From assembly GCA_029204225.1 (NCBI GenBank), contig CM055099.1, positions 63,783,614 through 63,847,613 of the forward strand: a stretch of 64,000 nucleotides of DNA, written 5' to 3'. Both the position numbers and the translations under genes were made by a program. The DNA comes from Diphasiastrum complanatum. Taxonomy: Eukaryota > Streptophyta > Lycopodiopsida > Lycopodiales > Lycopodiaceae. Position 1 is the first letter of the stretch. Each line of letters opens with the position of its first letter. Under the pieces are notes generated by a model, which saw only the letters and a program-made list of their open reading frames with translations, was not told the DNA's origin and did no database searches. Positions 10,908 through 58,993 of this stretch are shown piece after piece.

Positions 10908-13241
10908 ATGGAACAAGAATCTGGTATTATTTCTGCAAGTGATCAAGTGCCATGGCGGCAGAAGGTGGCAAAGTCTGTAAGAAGCAGTTGGAGGCTCGTA
11001 GCTGCTGTCATAGACGTGAAAACACCTGCCGTTAATCAGCAGGATGATGTTTCTTTGGCAAAAGAAAAGGTAGAGGAGCTCTCCGGCATGCCTCAGAGGA
11101 ATGAACAGAAAAAGAAATGTAATGAGCAGAAGAAGATGTTATGCTCAAACCTGTTGGAACTTTCAAAGGATGGATCGGATAGCTCCTTGCAAAGTTACTG
11201 TGGTTCATCTGCCAAAGAAGAAGAAGGGCAAACCTACACCGCCAAAGAGCAGACGTCATCGTCTACAATATACCAAATCTCAGAACAGGAGCCTGAAATT
11301 CAAGAACAATCAACTGATGCAAGATGTGGCGTACGTAGTCTGCTGTTAACTTTTTCATTACATGTTTCAAAATTCAGTGTGAAGTTTTCTGTTTATAATT
11401 ATCTTCCACAACTTTGATGTAACTATGTTCTGTGGAGATGGCCGCTAAAGTATTTCAGTTGCACTTTCTAGATGATATATAACACCGCAGAAGGGCATTC
11501 TCTATGTGTGGGAACTAGAGAACCAGAAAATTCTCACGAGTATACGACAATCAGGAATGAGGCAGGAGATATTTTGTCTTCTAACAGCAGCCGCAATATC
11601 TTTATTTCTGAGAAGGGTGAAGAAACAAATGAAATAGATCCAATGCTATCTGTAACATCGGTTACCAGGCAAGAGAGTAAGACTAATTCCACATACCAGA
11701 GCCCTTCTTCTATCGTCCCCAACGCCAAGTCAAAAGTCTTTCTAACTTCCAGACACGCCAAGTTTGCAACAATAGCTGCTGTAGCAACAGATATAAGTAC
11801 ACTCAGCCGTTCCGGTTCCTGTCCTGCATCTCTGTATGCTACTGCGTTTAAAGCCCAGTTAATGGGCTTCCAGAAACGCTACGCTTATGACATGCACGAA
11901 ATGCACAAATCGCTTGATTCGATTGATACAAGGTTGCAGGAACTTCAAAGACTAAAGTCTATAAACCAACAGCTTGAAGAACTGAATATAAAAGAGAATA
12001 CTGTCAATATTCCGGATCCAATAAACAATGAACAAGCACCAGATCGCAGTACAGGTGTTCTCAAGAGGAAACATCGGCAGCCGCAGCCAGGAAAAATCGT
12101 TTGCTGCAATGAGGCGAATAGCTTTCCGAGCCCATTGAGGGCATCTAAGCAGGAAATTAGCTCATCCAAAGGTTCAGCCGAGCATAATATGTCCGGAATT
12201 CGCAAAAAAGTCATAAATCGTGGAGTCAATGTTCTGCTGAAAGAAAAGGTGCGAAGTAGAAGAAGCTCTTTCCATCAGGAAGACGAGTTGAGCGATACCT
12301 CCTCGGAAGCTCTCTTGAAGGAAAAGCAGGAGCGTCACGTTCACGTTACCCAGGAGAATAAGTGCATCCACAAGCTAGGAAGAAGCTGGTGCTGCTGGTA
12401 CATTCATCAGGGTTGTCTGTCAGCTCTCAGTTTATCAAGTCGACAGCAGTTTGTCTCGGTTGGCTTATTTCAGGAGACTGTGCGAGTGCTCCAAGCTCTA
12501 CTCCACGATTTCTGCACAAAGCTGATCGAGGCAAGGCAAAAGATGCTTCACAAGCTGGGAATCACAATCAACACTAGGTCAACGGCAATGAGTTTGATGA
12601 TGCATGAATTTCTGCCTGACGCTCGATTCGCTCAGATAGAGCACCTGAAATACGGCATTCAAGCATTCATCAACAGAACCATGTTTGAAGATTTTGAGAC
12701 CGAATACTTTGGCATATTAACGCATCGTGACCGGCAACTCAGGAAATTGTGTCTGTTATCATTTCAGTGCTTGATGTCGATCTCACCAGCAGACGCCATT
12801 GACGTCAAAAGCCCCGGGTACAATAGATGCTTCCATCTTTTCTGTAGTAAGAAGCTTCAGCTCTTTCAGGAAAAGTTGGACTGGTTTGAGAAGTGGCCGG
12901 ATAATGTGACGGAGTCTTTTCTGGATGTAAGCAAATATATGTGGATCATACACAATATGGCTAGTGCATTTCGCTCACATGTGTACCTTTTCTACGTGAA
13001 TGAGTGGGCAGAATTTGATCCAGATTACATGGAAGCTGTGGTAGAGGGCTCTCTTGAAGAGCTTGATCAACCTAGAAAATACGTGGAGTTCATGGTCAAT
13101 CCTGGATTTGAGCTCTGCCAGAGAATCATAAAGAGCTTAGTCTATATAAAACCTGCAGCGAGACATAGACTCTCTGATCTTCCAAGCACGAGATTGCAAG
13201 CACCTCCCGATCATGGTAAACAATCGTTCTGGTTTACTTGA
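10908..13241 (+). CDS. DUF641 / GIL1-IRKI family protein, two exons
   Basis: Exon 1 is 10908-11330 and exon 2 is 11472-13241. The 141-bp intron is phase 0, with donor GTACGT and acceptor TTTCTAG. The joined frame encodes 730 residues. Residues about 265-315 (around AFKAQLMGFQKRYAYD) resemble the helical DUF641 region. Residues about 473-707 match the conserved C-terminal part of GIL1 and IRK-interacting proteins: a LLHDFCTKLIEARQKM helix, YGIQAFINRTMFEDF, MWIIHNMASAF, FDPDYMEAVVEG and VEFMVNPGFEL occur in family order. In Arabidopsis, GIL1 acts in light-dependent gravitropism and IRKI contacts a receptor kinase; the role here is inferred only from family. The middle (residues 145-470) is low-complexity and Ser/Lys-rich. 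The protein is quite diverged from the angiosperm sequences I know. A poly(A) signal AATAAA lies at 13482-13487. Confidence 0.65.
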
Positions 13242-34393: not shown

Positions 34394-34815
34394 GCAGGCA
34401 CGGCCCAATACGGGTGCAGAGGCTAGTACAGCACGTTCTGGGCAGGGTTTAGGTGCAGTGCATGGTCCAGGTGAGGCCACTCCAGTTCCACCCGCAATAG
34501 CAGGGCTTAGATAAGAGGGGAGAGCGTCACATGATCAGGTTGGATTTGCGGCAGGGGTCCTCGTCCCTCCTCTTCTTCGGCGGCAGATGTTGGACATGCT
34601 TCAACAGGTTCTCCCAGAGAGAGTGATACACCCACAGATCAGCCATCCATTTCACGTGTTAGACCAGGAGCGCCATATACACAGCAGAGAGAGGTTAGGC
34701 CCAATCAGCAGACCCTTGATCGATGCGGGTGGCAGAGAGAGCAGCATGCCCAATGCACTTGGCTTGCTGGCCAGTTTTTTTACGAGTGCGGCATTCCTTT
34801 TGTTGTTGCTGACAC

Positions 34816-35690
34816 TTGGGTGTTCAAGGAGTTTTGCGCACAGGTGGCAGCCGTGGATGCTACATGGACGCCTCCCAGACGAGAGGCATTGCGAGGCATG
34901 ATGCTTCGTCAGGAAGAGGAGACCATCACGCGGGAGCTGTGTTTTGTGGCAGGTATGGATGCACGATAGTGAGTGATGAATGGACCGACATACGTCGGCG
35001 ATCCGTCATCAATGTCTTGGTTTCTGGCACAGTATTCCTACGTGGCGTGGATGCCACTCGAGGTGGTGATGCCATCACAGCCGATTTCGTATGGGAGGTT
35101 ATTAGAGATGTTATTGTTGACATTGGGGTGGAGCATGTGGTTCAGGTTGTCACGGACAACTTTTCAAATTGCAAGCAGATGGGAGAGATTATGACGAGGG
35201 AGCACCCCGGCATTGTGTGGACACCCTGTGCTGCACATTGCATAGACTTGCTCATCCATGACGTGTGTGCACTTCCATGGATCAGAGAGGTATTGGTTTC
35301 TCCATTTGCTATGCTATCTTGATTGACGCCTGCTCCATGCTGCTAAACACATCTCAACTACCATCTAAACTTTTTACTAGATGTCTGTGCTGCAGATCAC
35401 TTCTATGGCCATGTGCCTGGTCACTTTTGTTACCACGAAGAGGCGTGTGCTAGCCCTATTCCGCACCTTCTCGCACCTAAACCTGAAGAAGCCAGCACCC
35501 ACACGCTTTGCGTTTTACTTCTTGGTGCTAGAGCAATTGACAAAGGTGAAGGACACACTGCGGCGGATGGTTTCCAGCGAGGCCTTCCGAGAGTTCATGG
35601 ACGTCCCACATGTGGCGTTTTTTCGGTCCATTGTGTTCGGTGATGAGTTCTGGACATGTGCTGAGGAGAGATTGCTGAATGATGGTGGAG
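34816..35690 (+). pseudogene. hAT transposase core (DUF659 type), truncated
   Basis: Exon 34816-35289 reads CTIVSDEWTDIRRRSVINVL, then VVQVVTDNFSNCKQMG and WTPCAAHCIDLLIHDV. These are the DUF659/RNase H-fold hAT core in order, with the expected aspartates. An intron (35290-35395, donor GTATTG, acceptor GCTGCAG) keeps phase 0. The second exon reads ITSMAMCLVTF and PAPTRFAFYFLVLEQL, the conserved TRFAT region. The sequence is hAT-like until about 35690 and then becomes unrelated, so the C-terminal hAT dimerisation domain is absent. Confidence 0.8.
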
Positions 35691-48303: not shown

Positions 48304-49437
48304 ATGGCAGGACTAGGAGAGTCCGTGCTTGGAGAAGCTAGTAGATTGGATAGGGTATCCAATTACAGCATTTGAAAATTCAAAATGAAAATTATTTTCA
48401 TGGAAAATGAGCTGTGGGACGTTGTCACTGGGGTGGAACAACGGCCAGCTACAACTCTAGCCGATATTTGTGCATTTGACAAAAGGGCGCAAAAGACCTT
48501 ATCCTTGATAAACTTGTCAGTGAAGGATCATGTTATTGCCCAGATTAGTGAAGCTGTATCAGCAAGAAGCGCTTGGGATGCACTCAAAACGCAGTTTCAA
48601 ATGGCGAACCCCTCTCAAATGATGTTTTTGAGGACCAAACTCATAAGTGTTTGCATGGAGGAAAATGAGGGCACAAGGTCCTATTTCACACGAATAAAGG
48701 AGTTACGAGACCAATTAACAGCTATTGGTGAACCAATAAGAGATGTTGAGCTGGTTCACATAGCTATAAATGGCCTATCCGAAAATTTCCAAATGTTTGC
48801 AAGTGGCATTGCTTCAAGGGAGAGACTACCAACAACTAAAAATCTTCATGGCATCATCCTACAGGAGGAACAAAGACGTGAAGTGGTAAAAACTCGACTT
48901 CCCACATCGGAAGATCAAGCAATGCTAGCCAAAGGGAAGCATAAATACAAGAAGCAATCCAAGAAGTCGAATGTGGAGGATGACAATCAAGGATTCACAT
49001 TAGGCAAGAAGAAGAAAGGCAACTGTTTCTATTGCCAAAAGCCTGGACATTGGGCAAGAGATTGTCACAAAAAGAAGGAGGATATTAAGAGGGGCAAAGT
49101 GAAGCAGTTGACCAATTTTGTCGAAGAAGAGAATGATAGCGATAACAAAGATCAAGGCACGACATTTGCAACAACATTAGCATCGCAACATTCCATTGAT
49201 CATACACATTGGTACGTGGACTCAGGAGCAACGAGACACATGACTAGCAACAAATCATGGTTTAAAAATTTGGAGCTTACTGATGATGGAGATAGAGTTG
49301 CACAGGCGAATGACGACGAGTGCCAAATCCATGGAGTTGGTGCAGTGCCTATTCAATTTCCTGATGGACATGTGAAGGTAATGAAAATGTGTTGTATGTT
49401 CCTGGCCTTCAAGAGAGTCTTTTATCTGTTGGTATAA
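48304..49437 (+). pseudogene. Copia C gag and protease
   Basis: The gag start MAGLGESVLGEASRLD at 48304 is in frame with the main 350-codon run (48385-49437) except for one TGA near 48373. The capsid-type helices (WDVVTG, ARSAWDALKTQF, TRIKELRDQL) resemble the UBN2 family. The zinc knuckle is CFYCQKPGHWARDC at about 49024-49065. Protease begins WYVDSGATRHMT (49211) with the DSGA active site. A frameshift near 49385 ends the run before the LYVPGL...LLSV block. Confidence 0.9.
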
Positions 49438-49493
49438 TGATAGATCATAAGTTGAAGGTGGAGTTCAACGACAAGAAATGCTAGATCAATGAT

Positions 49494-50827
49494 GTGAAAC
49501 GGGGTTTCAAGGTGATTGTTGATGGCTTTAGGGATAAAACTCGTGGTTTGTACAAGTTAAATGTTGTTGTTATGAAATGCAATGTGTTAGCATCTACATC
49601 TATATCACAAAGTGATTTATGGCATAGGCGCATGGGGCATTTGAACTTCAAAAGCTTGAGGCTACTTCGTAAGCTCAAGATGGTAACAGGTCTACCTAGT
49701 TTGGATGACAAAGAAGAGTCCATTTGCAAGGAGTGTGTGCTAGGCAAGTTACACAGGAAGAAGTTCAACAAAGAAGGAGCAACAAGGGCAAAATGAGTGC
49801 TTGAGTTGATACACTCTGACCTATGTGGGCCAATGAAGGTAATGTCTATTGGTAAAGCATTTTATTTGCTAACCTTCATTGATGATTACTCACAAAAGAC
49901 CTGGATCTACACCATTAAGCAGAAGTCTGACACATTTGGATGCTTAAAAGCTTCAAATCATTGGTTGAAAATCAGTTAGGTGCTAAGATCAAGGTATTCA
50001 GGACAGATCGTGGTGGTGAGTATCGTTCCACAGATTTTATTGACTTTTGCAAGGAGCATGGCATTAAATAGGAGTTTGCGCAAGTTGATACACCTCAACA
50101 AAATGGGGTAGCTGAAAGAAAGAATCGTACCATTGTCGAAGCAGCTAGGGGAATGATGACACATATGGGAGTTACTGATTCTCTATGGAGAGAAGCTGTC
50201 AAAACTGCTGTGTTCTTACAAAATAGAAGCCCTACAGTTGCAGTACATAATCGCACACCCGAGGAGGCATTCACTGGTAAGAAGCCTAAGATGGATGGGT
50301 TGCGAGTATTTGGATGTCAAGTGTATGTTCACATACCTAAGAGCAAGAGAGCCAAAATGCAGGTAAAGGGCTTGAAGTGCATTTTTATAGGATATGATGA
50401 ACAAACCAAGGTATATAGATGTTATGATCCAGAGGGGCTACGTGTGCACATAAGCCGTGATATCTTATTTGATGAAATCCATAGATTTGGGGATGAAGAA
50501 GAGAATAATGATGAGCTATGCAAGCTTCTCAAAGAGGATGAAATAGTTCTACCACCACAGGAAGATCATCATGAGGATGATGAGGGACATGGTACTCCTC
50601 CCACCATAGAGACGAGATGGAGAGTGAGAAACAAATCTATTGGATCAGAAAAGACTGAGGTAGCAGGTGATAAAAGGAAGGAGCAAGATGCACCATGGGA
50701 TTCCTATTCACCTCGTAGCGAATCACCTCAACGTAAGTTACCCAAATGGTATACTAAACTCATGAGTGACAAGGAAGGGAAAATTGTCGAGCCTAGCAAG
50801 GAGGGAGATTTGTGGCATTCCACATGA
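49494..50827 (+). pseudogene. Copia C integrase
   Basis: The GAG-pre-integrase zinc site is DLWHRRMGHLNFKSL...CKECVLGK. The core has LELIHSDLCGPM (first catalytic Asp), FRTDRGGEY (second Asp) and PQQNGVAERKNRTIVEAARG (Glu region). The C-terminal block is FGCQVYVHIPKSKRAKM and KCIFIGYDEQTKVYR. Stops at about 49795 and 50068 and a frameshift near 49945 interrupt it. The DDE residues are visible. Confidence 0.9.
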
Positions 50828-50869
50828 GAGAGGAAGGAACCTGACAAGTTTCAGGTAAATCTTGCACTT

Positions 50870-52425
50870 ATGAGTGATATTATTTCATCTATTGAACCCT
50901 CTTGCTTTGAGGAGGCCAAAAATCAGGAGATATGGCAAAAAGAAATGCAGGAGGAGATTGATTCCATCAAACACCATGACACATGGGAGATAGTGGATCT
51001 TCCAAAGGGCAAAAGACTTATTGGCAACAAATGGGTATACAGGACAAAGTACAATGCCGATGGAACTATTTCAAAACACAAAGCAAGGCTTGTAGTGAAA
51101 GGCTATGCGCAAAGTAAGGGCATTGACTACTAAGAGACCTTCGCTCCTGTGGCCAAGTGGAATACACTTCGCATGGTGATTGCTTTGGCGGCACTATTTG
51201 GATGGAATCTACATCAGATGGATGTAAAGTCTGCATTTTTTAATGGTAAACTTGAATAAGAAGTGTACATGGAGCAACCTAGTGGCTTTGTGACACATGG
51301 CATGGAAGACAAAGTGTGCAATCTGAAGAAAGCCTTGTACGGATTGAAACAAGCACCACGTGCTTGGTATAGCCACTTTGATGGGCATCTCCTTTCTAGA
51401 GGTTTGATACGCACTTATTCAGATTTCAATCTTTACTACTTTGCTCATGACTCTAGTATCACACTGATTGTGCTGTACGTAGACGATCTCATAATCACAG
51501 GAAATGATGATGAGTTGATTGGTGCAATCAAGAAAGACTTATCCTCTAGTTTTGATATGACTGATCTTGGCTTGATGCACTACTGTTTGGGAGTGGAAGC
51601 ATGGCAAGGTTGCAATAGCATCGCACTAACACAGACAAAGTACGTGAATGAAATTTTGAAGCGTTTCAAAATGTGCGACAGCAAGCCAGTATTCACACCT
51701 GTGGAGGTTGGTAAAAAACTATCTAATCAGGATGAGAGTGTACTAGTTGATGCCACTTTATTTCATCAATTAGTTGGTTCGCTGATTTATCTCACAACTA
51801 ATCGTCCTGACATAAGTTATGTTGTAATTGTTGTAAGTCAATTTATGGCTACTCCTAGAGAGATTCATTGGAAAGCAGCAAAGAGAATTCTTCGTTATGT
51901 GAAGGGCACGATAATCCATGGATTGTTATATGAGAGGCATCATACTTTACCAGTTTTATAGGGCTTTGTTGATTCAGAATGGGCAGGCTATATTGATGAT
52001 AGGAGATCTACCACAGGTTATATATTTCATGTTAGTAATGGTGTATTTTCTTGGTCAAGTAAGAAACAAGACATAGTTGCTCCTTCTACTACAGAATCAG
52101 AATACAAAGCACTATGTTCAGCTACGCAGGAAGCAGTTTGGCTAATAGAATGTTAGAAGACATTGGAATTCTGCAGAATAAGCCTACTGTGATCAGATGT
52201 GACAGTCAGAGTGCCATACAGCTAGCTAAAAATCCTGTATTTCATGCACACACGAAGCATATAGAAATTAAGTATCATTTCATTAGAGAGAAGTTGTTAT
52301 CTAATGAAATACACATAGTGCATTGTAAGACAGAGAATCGGTTAGCTGATATATTCACTAAACCTTTAAGTACTGATAAGTTTGAGTTTTTTAGAGAAAA
52401 GCTCTTTGTAAGAAAGATAAACTAG
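50870..52425 (+). pseudogene. Copia C reverse transcriptase and RNase H
   Basis: RT shows EEIDSIKHHDTWEIVDLP, NKWVYRTKYNADG, LHQMDVKSAFFNG, the catalytic LYVDDLI and FDMTDLGLMHYCLG. RNase H shows FVDSEWAGYIDDRRSTTGY, TTESEYKAL, CDSQSAIQLAKNPVFHAHTK and ADIFTKPL. Stops occur at about 51131, 51257 and 51959, with a frameshift near 52110. Confidence 0.92.
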
Positions 52426-53977: not shown

Positions 53978-56900
53978 TTATTCCACTGGATCAAAAAGAA
54001 TGCTCGTGACGTGCTTTTTCATTGCTGTGCTCGAAGAAAATCCATCAGTCTCAGCATACATGAAATGCAAAACTTTGGCCATGTTGAGGTGCAACTCCTT
54101 GCAAGCTCTGGGAACTTTTGTGGGTCTTAGAATCTCAGATACAAGCTGTTTCCTTGTGTGATCAATCTCATTCTGAGCCTTGTAGATTGCCTCCTCCTCT
54201 GTGATTTGGTACTCTCTCATGTAAATTGAAATGCTATTGGGCTTTCCTTGCCGTGACTCCCTCTGCAGAAACAAATTAGTATCAGCAGTATGTGGTGTTG
54301 GGAATTGTCTTAAAAAGACATTGCTGTGGCAGAAATATGTCTATACAGGAGCTGATGATCAGATTTTGCTTACCCTGTATCCTTGGATATCATTTAATAA
54401 GCGTCCACAATGGCTCAGGAGTTGCATTACTCTCCTGTAGTCTGGATGCGCCACGATTTCATCAGTCAACAACTCCCCTACAAAGTAAGCTGACGTGAGT
54501 ACAATAGGCTCTAGTGCTATTGAGATCTGTGAGACATTCGTGTACTCTTGTATGGTAGGCTGCTGTCCTGACTGTGTCCACTCAGCCTCCTTCAGGTATG
54601 ACTCTACCAAGCGTATCCACTGTAAAGACAAGGCGCTAATTACAAGTCATTGATCTGTGAAACCTGTAGTTCATCTAGAAAAAGTGACTGTATCAAAAAT
54701 TCAAATGTCAGACTGAGCGGGCCCGAAAAGTTCTGTAATGTAGGGACAATGAGTGTGAGGAATGACATACAATTTCATGTAAATGTGAGCCGATATCGCT
54801 CCCTTGGTAACGTCTTCCTTCTTGAATGATGTCATCGGTTGTGTTGTAAAGTGCAAGGAAAACGATTTTCATGTCCTTGGACAGATTGTCAATAGCTGAC
54901 AGATTCCAGCTGAAACCAGCAACTACCTCAGCTTGAATAATTTGTAGAGTTTTTTGCAGCCCACATGACACGCATAAATGCTAATGCTAACTACAAAGTA
55001 CTGATGGAATCTTTCGCTTACCTTTTGACAGCAGCAACAAACTCTTTCAGATCATCCAAAGAAGCTCCGACATCAAAAAGATCGTCAATAACAGTCGATA
55101 GAACACAGCAGCGTGTCCAAACGGACCGCATACAAGCCATTTGGGGCTCAAATGCTGTTGCCGCAACTGTGAAGTAGCATTCAAGTGCCTTCTGACGAGA
55201 AAATTCCAGTTTCGAAAGTTGCATCTCTTCGTTCCAGCTGTACAGGAGCAAAAATTTTGTCTCGTAACGAAAAGATGCGCTAGTTCTTTCTCAAGGACGT
55301 AAATAGAAGCAATTTGCTAACCATTCAATTACATGACCTGAAATCAATTTGCGAGTGCAGAGTCTATAAAGTCAACATAACTCATAGTACTCTCTGTTTA
55401 GTTTAAAACTTAAACCCACTTCAAATATAGCAGGTGGCACAGCGGGCCAGACCTGTATATTTGCTGTAATTCCTTTTGAAAGTTGGACTGGCACACGTTA
55501 GAATCGGCCTTCGCTAGATTTAAGAGCATGTGATTGCTGATCATGTGCATTCTGTATTAAGACATATCTCACTCAATTATTTCAAGTGAAGATAGAGATG
55601 TAAACCTAGTACGGATTAAATCGCATGTGTGACAGCACATTGTATCTCATATCAGCATTAACTTCTAATTTGATAGTCTTTATTCACCTATAGACACTTT
55701 TTCCTATCCACGGATCGTTTGTTCCATAGAGCTGAATGTATTTCCGGGACTCAATTCGTTGTAATGTGGCACACCACGGAAAATCCAGAGCAAACTTGAC
55801 CTGTAACAAGCTCATAGGGATTCAAGATGCCAATTCTACATGAAAGAAAAGATCGTATCGCCTGCGCTCGAACATAGACTAGGAAATTTTATGAGCATGA
55901 TCATACCTCTCCAACTAAGTCCTTCGCTATAACCCACTTGTCAAAGAGAGTATTGGTATTGCGCGATCGTTCCAAAAATTTCCTTGTAAACAACTTTGCT
56001 TCTTCAAGAATTATCTCCTCGGGAAACTGTAACTGAGAAGCTCGATACAGCTGGAACATGCCAGTAGTTGCTTGGCCTACTTGTCCATAGAAAGCGAAAA
56101 ACTCTCCATCCTTCTCGAAATGACTGAAAACATCTGCCAACAATATCCAGCTTGACTCGTACTTTGCTATAATTTACACAGAAGATTAGATACTGTGATA
56201 GTGATAGACATCCACCACGGGCTAAACTTACCAGCAGAGACATCATATCCATGGAGTCGAAGAAGGCGGAACGCCATAGCCGTGTCGTCCACGTCTTGTA
56301 CAGAGGTTTCTCGTCCCCAACCTATTCCATTGGGCGTCCAGTATCTGAGGAATATTCAACAAACGATTCACCTCCTCCGTGAAAGATATGTTGGATGACA
56401 CAAGGACCTGATTTTAAGCATTTCATATAGTCGAAGCTTGCACGTAACTGGAACAGAAGTAATCCAACGGCTACAACAGGAGGATTATCATCATAATTGG
56501 ATCTATCATCATCTTGGCATAACAAATTAACGAAAGAAGATTTCACCTGTAGACGTAATCAAGTGCATCTTTAATCTCTTGCTTAAAGTAGCGAGAGATC
56601 CCAAGACGCTCAAGCCGATCCACGACCCACAAACGTTCGAATAGGTCCACGGGGTATACATTTGGAACTGCAATTGTTTTAAAGCAAAAGAAAATTCAGC
56701 TCGCAATGTTCTGAGTCCTGAATCACAGAGAATCGCCGCTGTACTTCTAACCTTATGTGTTACAGTGAACATTAAGAATGACGTTGCATATAATGAACCT
56801 CTACATAAAAGTCATGTTAATTGCACCTGCATTGCCAAATTTTTGCAGTATTGAAGTCAAATATTCTTGGCATCTACGATCACGTGTATGCATGAGAACG

Positions 56901-58993
56901 CATGCTGTTGATGCAGGCGAATTCAAAAACGATCCATTTTTGGACTGGAGTCTCAGAATCTTTTTCCAGTCCACATAATGGCTTAGCCCTTCTAAAGAGT
57001 GTAAGAGAGTTGTAGGAGTTTCATGCAACTTGTCGACGGATATCCTGCACTGACAACGTGAATCAGGATGGCAACAACACACAAGACAACAGACTACACA
57101 ATATCAAGATTCTTATGTGCTGGAGCATGAGTTTAACTAATCCATATGTTTACTAGCAGACTTAGCCTTCACAGCGTTACTATTTTGGAAGCTCATGATT
57201 TACAATATCTCCATTCCAATGAGAATGCTTTTATTTATTGGGGATATCAAAGTTGACCTTTTAAGCTTCTTCTCTTTCAGTGCCACGATTCGTTTTACGA
57301 TTGGCGCATTATATGGAATATCGATGTTTAATCTTTGTGCCTTCTCGAGCATTGTAGGAAAGACTATCTCAAATCCTATTGGCATGAGAGTGATATCAGC
57401 AACCTCCAATAGTTGCATTCCGCTGTGAATGAACCTTACACCTAATCATGTAAAACACATCTCAGAAAGTGTTCACAAATGCAATAAGCTGGTATCAAAC
57501 TTCAACAATATAAATTGGCGAACTAGTATAAGTCAAGTACAAGCTAACCTTTTTCAACGTTACTACGGCCCACTTTCCAAGTCGACAAGGCTACAACGCA
57601 TGCGAGAGTAGAGCATATTCGATCGAAGGCGAGGAAAAGGTGCGGGTCTCCCCATGAGCCGTCATGTAGCTGGTTGTTGATTATCCACTCCACACATTTC
57701 GGAAATTGAGGCCCTTCAGATCCATCATCCAAAGAAGGGACAATCGCTACCCAAGCGGTATCGTAAGCAGATATTGATATATCGCCATCGCCCATCGAGC
57801 GTAACATCTTTCTTACTGTTTCGACCAGGCCCTCCAATCGTCTCCTTGGCAATTCCTGGGACTCCCCATAATAGAAAAAGATCTTAGCTGCTGGTACACG
57901 GCTAGTTTAAGTCCATAAAGGATATCAATGCTTGCTAAGAGGAAAACATCTCCAACAAAGAATTACCTGAATGATTTCAGTCAGAGCCGGTTTAAATTCT
58001 ACTTCTTGGGTGCTGGTTCTACTTCGAGAAACGTCTGACAGAATCGTGTTTCTTACTGCAGACAATATAAGAAACAAAAAGTAGAAAAAAAAATCTGAGC
58101 CTTATACTCATCGGAAGCTGGAAAACAACCTGATCTAAGATACAATTATATACTTGAAAAATTTAATCAAAAGTTTGTCTAGAAAGTAATGTGTTGGTCT
58201 TTTCGAAGCTCCAACGTAGAAAAACAAGTGAGATATGGGCAAAAAGGCAAATTTTGAAAAAGAGAATCTCGATAGAGGAAGTCTGTCAGTAGCAACAGTA
58301 CACTTGATGCATGGTATGAGTTTGTGCTAGACCTGTTGCGGATGCTTGATGCTTGGACTAAGACTAGTAGGGGAGATTATGTGGTCTATGGAGGCTGTGC
58401 GAACGGATGCATGCTCCAGAACTGGAATGAGAAGATCGTTTTCTGTGTCTCGACTCTCAAAGACTGATGAGGGACGTGAGCCAGCTGGTATTGGCAGGTG
58501 GTCCGGAATAAGGATTATGTGCTCTACAACATAGCCAGGTATAGTGAGTGTGAGTTAAGCAAAATACCTAGCATCAACTTCTTCTCTTTCTTTAATCCGG
58601 TTTTGGGATGTTACAAGCTCAACAATCACCATGCAGCCTTGAGAGTTTTCAGCCTAAGACTCAAAAACCTAAACTGAATAATCTCACAGATTTTTGGATA
58701 ACTAATCAAAAGTACTGCACTAGCTACTAATTAGGCCTTCGCCTTTCATAGTCTTACCCTGATCAATCCTACTAACTGCTCATAACCACGAAGTGCAAAC
58801 ATCATAGAAAGTAAGTAAACCAGAATTACGTTTTTAGCTTACCCAGAAGTGGGCGCCTCTTAATCTGCATGCCCGAGTACCGCATTGAAGGTTTACATTT
58901 TGCTGAAAATGGCTGTATGTCAGAGAAACTGGAGCCTCTGCTGGGCACATTGACGAACCCAGTAGAGTTTATATTACAGGTGTAGCTCGCCAT
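53978..58993 (-). CDS. Bifunctional class II/class I diterpene synthase, ent-CPP/kaurene-synthase-like, 14 exons
   Basis: Exons: 58993-58843, 58055-57967, 57855-57549, 57441-57258, 57044-56827, 56667-56547, 56344-56232, 56133-55907, 55800-55688, 55551-55453, 55237-55022, 54909-54771, 54619-54374, 54262-53978. All are GT-AG with matching phases, total 2508 nt, 835 residues, no internal stop. Residues 1 to about 50 are Ser/Lys/Arg-rich, like a plastid transit peptide. SAYDTAWVA is at 109-117. The class II dyad motifs are LHS (His259) and PNV (Asn319), and the general acid motif DVDD is at 374-377; these predict GGPP to ent-CPP. The class I domain has DDLFD at 592-596 and NDIQGYRRE at 735-743 (Gly in the usual Ser/Thr place, as in kaurene synthases). 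PIV at 697-699 is the helix break whose Ile favours kaurene formation. The C-terminal half reads like a kaurene synthase ([32 protein letters not shown]). Thirteen introns fit the ancestral terpene synthase class. Product and stereochemistry are inferred. Confidence 0.9.
58056..58842 (-). other. Intron 1 of the terpene synthase
   Basis: 787 bases, donor GTAAGC, acceptor TTGTCTGCAG. The largest intron of the gene. A plus-strand 62-codon frame at 58346-58534 has no recognisable homology and is treated as noise or old repeat. Confidence 0.75.

Follow-up and report, generated by a model that had tools for sequence, protein, structure and literature searches.

Bifunctional enzymes that unite an ent-copalyl diphosphate (ent-CPP) synthase, CPS, with a kaurene synthase, KS, are known from certain bryophytes (PMC5118566). 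Here, we describe a gene from a clubmoss, Diphasiastrum complanatum, that most probably encodes a bifunctional synthase of the ent-CPP/ent-kaurene type, with gamma, beta and alpha domains and a predicted location in the plastid. The gene lies on contig C8 of the assembly, within a 64,000-nucleotide stretch of DNA (the window), whose positions serve as coordinates below. An initial annotation of this stretch had spoken of bifunctional enzymes as known from mosses and liverworts. The bryophytes are, of course, rightly named, but the kind is not restricted to them: LjCPSKS, from the fern Lygodium, is also reported to be a bifunctional CPS-KS (PMC9945934). The lycophyte Selaginella moellendorffii, of the same broad lineage as Diphasiastrum, is reported to perform the same pathway step with separate monofunctional CPS and KS enzymes (PMC7758035), whereas the clubmoss gene holds both sites in one protein.

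Compared by their motifs as described (PMC9945934), the moss PpCPS/KS and the fern LjCPSKS resemble the window gene in combining DxDD, LHS/PNV, DDxxD and PIx in one tri-domain protein. The window gene differs from both in coming from a lycophyte, in having STxxDDxxD rather than TTxxDDxxD, and in having several paralogues. A bifunctional CPS-KS is, of course, an already known kind of enzyme; the intact clubmoss family is a new member of it in an informative place. In the literature searched, no description of a lycopod CPS/KS was found, although one may be in print.

The gene and its two active sites

Splicing reproduces exactly the span, the 14 exons and the 835 uninterrupted codons given by the initial annotation (Table 1); the sense codons run to a TAA with no stop between. 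All 13 introns are GT-AG, and classical plant terpene synthase (TPS) genes are described as having 12-14 introns (PMC6779861). A protein-to-genome aligner gave the identical 14 exons, although its query was the window protein itself, which makes this a self-check only. Pfam finds Terpene_synth (PF01397, 169 bits) and Terpene_synth_C (PF03936, 235 bits) in the protein, both above their cut-offs, and residues 83-834 align to abietadiene synthase, in keeping with a tri-domain protein. Because serine and basic side chains are frequent and acidic ones rare among the first 60 residues (11 Ser, 8 basic, 2 acidic), the N-terminus is predicted to act as a plastid transit peptide.

Both active sites are complete. 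Motif alignment confirms what had been claimed for the N-terminal half, DVDD with the LHS/PNV dyad, and for the C-terminal half, where DDLFD (residues 592-596), PIV (697-699) and NDIQGYRRE together make up the class I site. A review (PMC9945934) takes LHS with PNV as the mark of hormone-related ent-CPP synthases, PIx with TTxxDDxxD as that of kaurene synthases, and LYS, PCH and VSIAL as that of abietane-type synthases. In non-seed plants, the ent-CPP and KS motifs are described there as correlating with the production of ent-CPP and ent-kaurene. The window protein has the KS-type PIx motif, with Ile698 as its key residue, and none of LYS, PCH and VSIAL. In the moss PpCPS/KS the key residue is Ile741, and replacing this Ile by Thr is reported to divert the product to pimaradiene (PMC5118566).

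The losses that would betray a monofunctional enzyme are absent from the protein. A monofunctional KS (TPS-e) is expected to lose the class II motif, and here DVDD and its dyad are intact. A monofunctional CPS is expected to lose the class I motifs, and here DDLFD and the NSE motif are intact.

The pattern of substitution bears on both halves alike. The ratio of amino acid-changing to silent substitution rates (dN/dS) was obtained from four sequences, the window gene and its three distinct paralogues L010, L011 and L012. In the class II half it ranges over 0.24-0.28 against these three, and in the class I half over 0.22-0.25 (where L012 offers 119 codons only), while the N-terminal 82 residues are looser, at 0.50-0.74. 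Compared with L011, each half shows more silent than amino acid change (Fisher P about 1e-12 and 3e-10, from back-calculated site numbers). Purifying selection acts on both, and neither resembles a relic.

Among solved structures, the class II half is closest to Arabidopsis ent-CPS (PDB 3PYA; 567 bits, E 3e-169), with abietadiene synthase next (545 bits). The Arabidopsis enzyme has the same letters opposite LHS and PNV. It differs in having DIDD for DVDD and no motif opposite DDLFD, whereas the window protein keeps both sites.

The initial annotation had looked to a tree for placement, and the outcome is divided. The window group lies outside the clan-S group in the class II tree (12 sequences, support 95 for clan S) and in the full-length tree (14 sequences, support 99). 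The class I tree (12 sequences) sets the window group and the KS-like gene L019 apart, at support 100, from the TPS-h type, AgAS, AgBIS, TXS and 7WAT, the last being the Selaginella miltiradiene synthase. Arabidopsis CPS, however, does not pair with the window group, which is at most a candidate member of the TPS-c subfamily. These trees have few references and long branches, with no characterised KS or CPS-KS among them, and omit L009, whose protein is that of the window gene, as well as the partial or broken L017, L018, L020, L022, L023 and L024.

The chemistry, stereochemistry, targeting and product proposed for the enzyme are drawn from families that include tested members. By analogy with these, geranylgeranyl diphosphate would first be protonated by the middle Asp of DVDD, in the class II site where the gamma and beta domains meet, and His259 and Asn319 would position a water that removes a proton to give ent-CPP. 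The ent-CPP would be released, and would then move to the alpha-domain site, either of that molecule or of a second one. There, DDLFD and NDIQGYRRE would bind Mg2+ and ionise the diphosphate, and Ile698 would let the cation pass the pimarenyl stage to reach ent-kaurene.

One further position offers a lead only. By an ungapped count, the residue 31 places before the key Ile is Tyr667 in the window protein, Phe in the paralogues and Cys in L019. On the assumption that this register holds, Tyr667 may match Ala710 of PpCPS/KS. If the two are equivalent, a bulky side chain here would favour ent-kaurene over hydroxykaurane.

Relatives in the genome

A search of the genome with the PF03936 profile gave 36 reported matches (52 candidates scored) in 17 places. 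The CPS/KS type comprises the window gene, its inverted copy L009, and L010, L011 and L012, and thus four distinct loci, counting the window gene and three distinct paralogues. The TPS-h type comprises L013-L018, L021, L022 and L024 (L021 and L024 by eye only), and the KS-like places are L019, L020 and L023. The paralogue models are based on homology: that of L010 starts with a spurious codon, those of L010 and L011 omit a few codons at the junction of exons 3 and 4, and that of L019 is poor between query residues 358 and 517.

The distinct paralogues differ in what they retain. L011 (on C1) fits every signature tested, and is a better candidate for the hormone enzyme than the window copy, which is a diverged paralogue. 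L010 (C6:37.90 Mb) has a canonical class I site and a class II dyad altered to LYS/PNA. Its class II product may differ from ent-CPP, because replacing the His of Arabidopsis CPS by Tyr or Phe is reported to give a kolavenyl product (PMC9945934). A partial copy of L010, 99.96% identical and probably a haplotig, sits at the end of the unplaced contig C3957.

L012 (C4:39.06 Mb) retains LHS, PNV and DVDD. Its exons 13 and 14 were not found in the 9.7 kb past exon 12, where copia-like sequence lies, and no PF03936 match was reported nearby that could supply them. Read from its sequence, L012 may be a CPS that arose through truncation, or else a pseudogene.

L019 (C10:62.78 Mb) looks TPS-e-like, with EPIV and ATVLDDFFD (ATxxDDxxD) in its class I part. 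The region matching residues 358-517 gave no tblastn match, and the aligner's weak class II candidate there is QDVHDSD. L020 and L023 are fragmentary KS-like copies near it.

A separate intact CPS outside the family was sought in two ways. None was seen among the places read from a search with the N-terminal domain (at least 33 matches, 39 scored), nor among those read from a search with the whole protein (at least 94 matches, 54 of 144 candidates scored). The latter also matched at C5:63.17 Mb, C20:44.81 Mb and C21:35.14 Mb, which are outside the places read. The place at C2:37.70 Mb is a TPS-h-type fragment. The CPS/KS-type genes are probably the host's source of ent-CPP, whether for gibberellins or for specialised diterpenes.

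Within the TPS-h branch, L013, L015 and L016 are genes of that type. L015 carries LYS, PCH and VSIAL, as reported for the lycophyte abietane synthases HsLS and PdLS (PMC9945934). L017 (C5:77.81 Mb) and L018 (C14:46.04 Mb) keep DxDD but read YDLFR in place of DDLFD and have a modified NSE motif; by these motifs they are candidates for enzymes with class II activity only.

The rest of the terpene synthase content speaks to the host. The initial annotation had entertained a gymnosperm. None of the 17 places behind the 36 PF03936 matches is of the seed-plant kind (TPS-a, b, g or d1). Of 57 PF19086 matches, 42 fall away from the plant-type places (on C15, C17, C1, C7 and others), and the one read, L033 (C8:45.28 Mb), looks microbial-type, with FDDINDD and NDLLSVKSE. 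Seed plants are described as having lost microbial-type terpene synthases (PMC6779861). A gymnosperm host is rejected on these grounds, and a moss or fern is disfavoured by L019, TPS-e being reported absent from mosses and ferns (PMC9945934). Microbial-type synthases, a KS-like gene and the lack of seed-plant-type places among the 17 fit a clubmoss.

Objections and other explanations

Several observations weigh against the assignment to a bifunctional synthase of this type. By one residue, the window protein misses the stricter KS signature TTxxDDxxD: it reads STVIDDLFD (S588). In the PDB, the class I half comes closest to abietadiene synthase (211 bits), and none of its 42 matches there is named KS. 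In the trees, Arabidopsis CPS adjoins clan S (support 88 in the class II tree and 91 at full length) rather than the window group. Two of the splice donors are weak (Table 1). Finally, the gene has an inverted copy in the assembly, considered below. The earlier remark that the C-terminal half reads like a kaurene synthase is borne out by PIV and by the class I tree, but not by the full signature.

The best of the alternatives, although an unlikely one, is that the enzyme is bifunctional but specialised. It would make ent-CPP and convert it to something other than ent-kaurene (for example ent-isokaurene, a hydroxykaurane or a pimaradiene), serving defence rather than hormone synthesis. The Thr-to-Ser change at 588 fits such a role, as L010, L011 and L012 all keep TTVIDDLFD. 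So do the 62 positions at which the window protein differs from every other member that has a residue to compare (at least two of the three), the presence of four distinct loci in the family, and the changed class II dyad of its sister L010. Against this, PIV, DDLFD and NDIQGYRRE are intact, and dN/dS in the class I half is not above that in the class II half. Further, Thr to Ser is a conservative change, and the function of the Thr pair is not known, according to a review (PMC9945934).

It is distinctly improbable that the enzyme is in effect monofunctional, with one site poor in vivo and the gene acting as a CPS beside the KS-like L019. L019 has a KS-type site in class I but lacks a recognisable class II motif; it would need ent-CPP from outside, and released ent-CPP is reported to be usable by a separate KS (PMC9945934). 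L012, with the class II half kept and class I exons 13 and 14 missing, points the same way. Yet the window gene is as strongly constrained in its class I half as in its class II half.

An abietadiene-type enzyme of the TPS-h/TPS-d3 kind, as in conifers or Huperzia-type lycophytes, is very hard to maintain. The Abies abietadiene synthase (PDB 3S9V, TPS-d3) is tri-domain and bifunctional, as the window enzyme probably is. In the PDB, no entry scores higher against the full protein (774 bits) or against the class I half, and several loci of this type exist in the genome (L013-L018 and L022). This ranking is to be expected, however, because structures of KS enzymes were still lacking in 2022 (PMC9945934). 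The Abies enzyme has LYS/PCH and VSIAL-GTV where the window protein has LHS/PNV and ISIAL-EPIV, in line with the initial annotation, by which conifer bifunctional enzymes usually lack PNV and have another class I end, and the supports of 95 to 100 given above separate the clan-S group from the window gene.

The inverted copy, L009, lies 3.1 Mb away and has the same coding sequence. The duplicated stretch as a whole, 35049-64000 against C8:66.94-66.97 Mb, takes in L009, L026, L028, L031 and L032. From 53185 to the end of the window (10.8 kb, with the whole gene), the two differ by no substitution and 3 gap positions (at 58.0-61.0 kb). Between 35 and 53 kb, where the comparison covers the parts up to 42.4 kb and from 48.1 kb on, the pieces are 97.4-100% identical; in the piece at 48.1-58.0 kb, all 17 substitutions lie to the left of 53185. 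Judged from these sequences, the copy may be a recent duplication with gene conversion, or an effect of assembly. That the gene itself is a recent pseudogene or an assembly artefact, as this near-identity might suggest, is scarcely credible, for it has no stop or frameshift, GT-AG introns throughout and strong purifying selection, and an artefactual second copy would not falsify the first.

Layout of the locus and meaning of the family

The exons of the window gene are collected in Table 1. For exon 8, an alternative acceptor lies 33 bases upstream in the same frame; an exon starting there, at 56166, would gain 11 residues ahead of the conserved DVF. We prefer the shorter reading, which is the conserved one.

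Table 1. Exons of the predicted CPS/KS-type gene, with positions in the window and the motifs they carry
Feature	Position	Strand	Basis
Whole gene: bifunctional CPS/KS-type diterpene synthase (predicted), 14 exons, 835 residues	53978..58993	-	splicing, Pfam, motifs, dN/dS
Exon 1: start codon, plastid-transit-like N-terminus (predicted)	58843..58993	-	splicing; transit peptide from composition
Exon 2	57967..58055	-	splicing
Exon 3: gamma domain begins, SAYDTAW (109-115)	57549..57855	-	splicing
Exon 4: weak donor GTCAAC	57258..57441	-	splicing
Exon 5: LHS (258-260), His of class II dyad	56827..57044	-	splicing, motif alignment
Exon 6: PNV (318-320), Asn of class II dyad	56547..56667	-	splicing, motif alignment
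Exon 7: DVDD (374-377), putative class II catalytic acid	56232..56344	-	splicing, motif alignment
Exon 8: acceptor TTGGCAG/ATG, giving the conserved DVSADVF reading	55907..56133	-	splicing
Exon 9	55688..55800	-	splicing
Exon 10: weak donor GTCTGG	55453..55551	-	splicing
Exon 11: STVIDDLFD (588-596), class I DDxxD, Ser replaces first Thr of KS signature	55022..55237	-	splicing, alignment
Exon 12	54771..54909	-	splicing
Exon 13: ISIALEPIV, KS-type Ile698; NDIQGYRRE (735-743) begins	54374..54619	-	splicing, alignment
Exon 14: NDIQGYRRE ends, C-terminus, stop	53978..54262	-	splicing

About 2 kb past the 3' end of the gene, frames of a copia-type retrotransposon occupy 48376-51961 (+), with gag and SH3-like domains by Pfam; the part at 51260-51961 (+) is reverse-transcriptase-like by eye. 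A DUF659 open frame lies at 34813-35322 (+; Pfam, 115 bits), a domain that occurs in hAT-like transposase genes. A 589-residue frame at 11472-13241 (+) has a GIL1/IRKI C-terminal domain (Pfam, 33 bits) and is likely a host gene. An Rfam scan of the window gave nothing at gathering scores.

It is possible, and we suggest it tentatively, that the clubmoss still makes its gibberellin precursor with bifunctional enzymes of the ancestral type and has no dedicated CPS lineage. The split between CPS and KS would then be recurring among the copies, with L011 intact, the window gene diverged, L010 altered in its dyad and L012 missing its class I end, beside L019, which is KS-like with class II degraded. 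If this is true, the genus Diphasiastrum is a natural experiment on the separation of the two functions.

In the accepted model, an ancestral bifunctional CPS-KS split into CPS and KS, and the lycophyte cited for it, Selaginella, has the separate enzymes (PMC7758035). An intact bifunctional family in a second lycophyte line, accompanied by a truncated copy and a gene of KS-like type, would place that split at a later date, or would show that such splits were repeated. The clubmoss family, in turn, would supply ready-made enzymes with which to study it.

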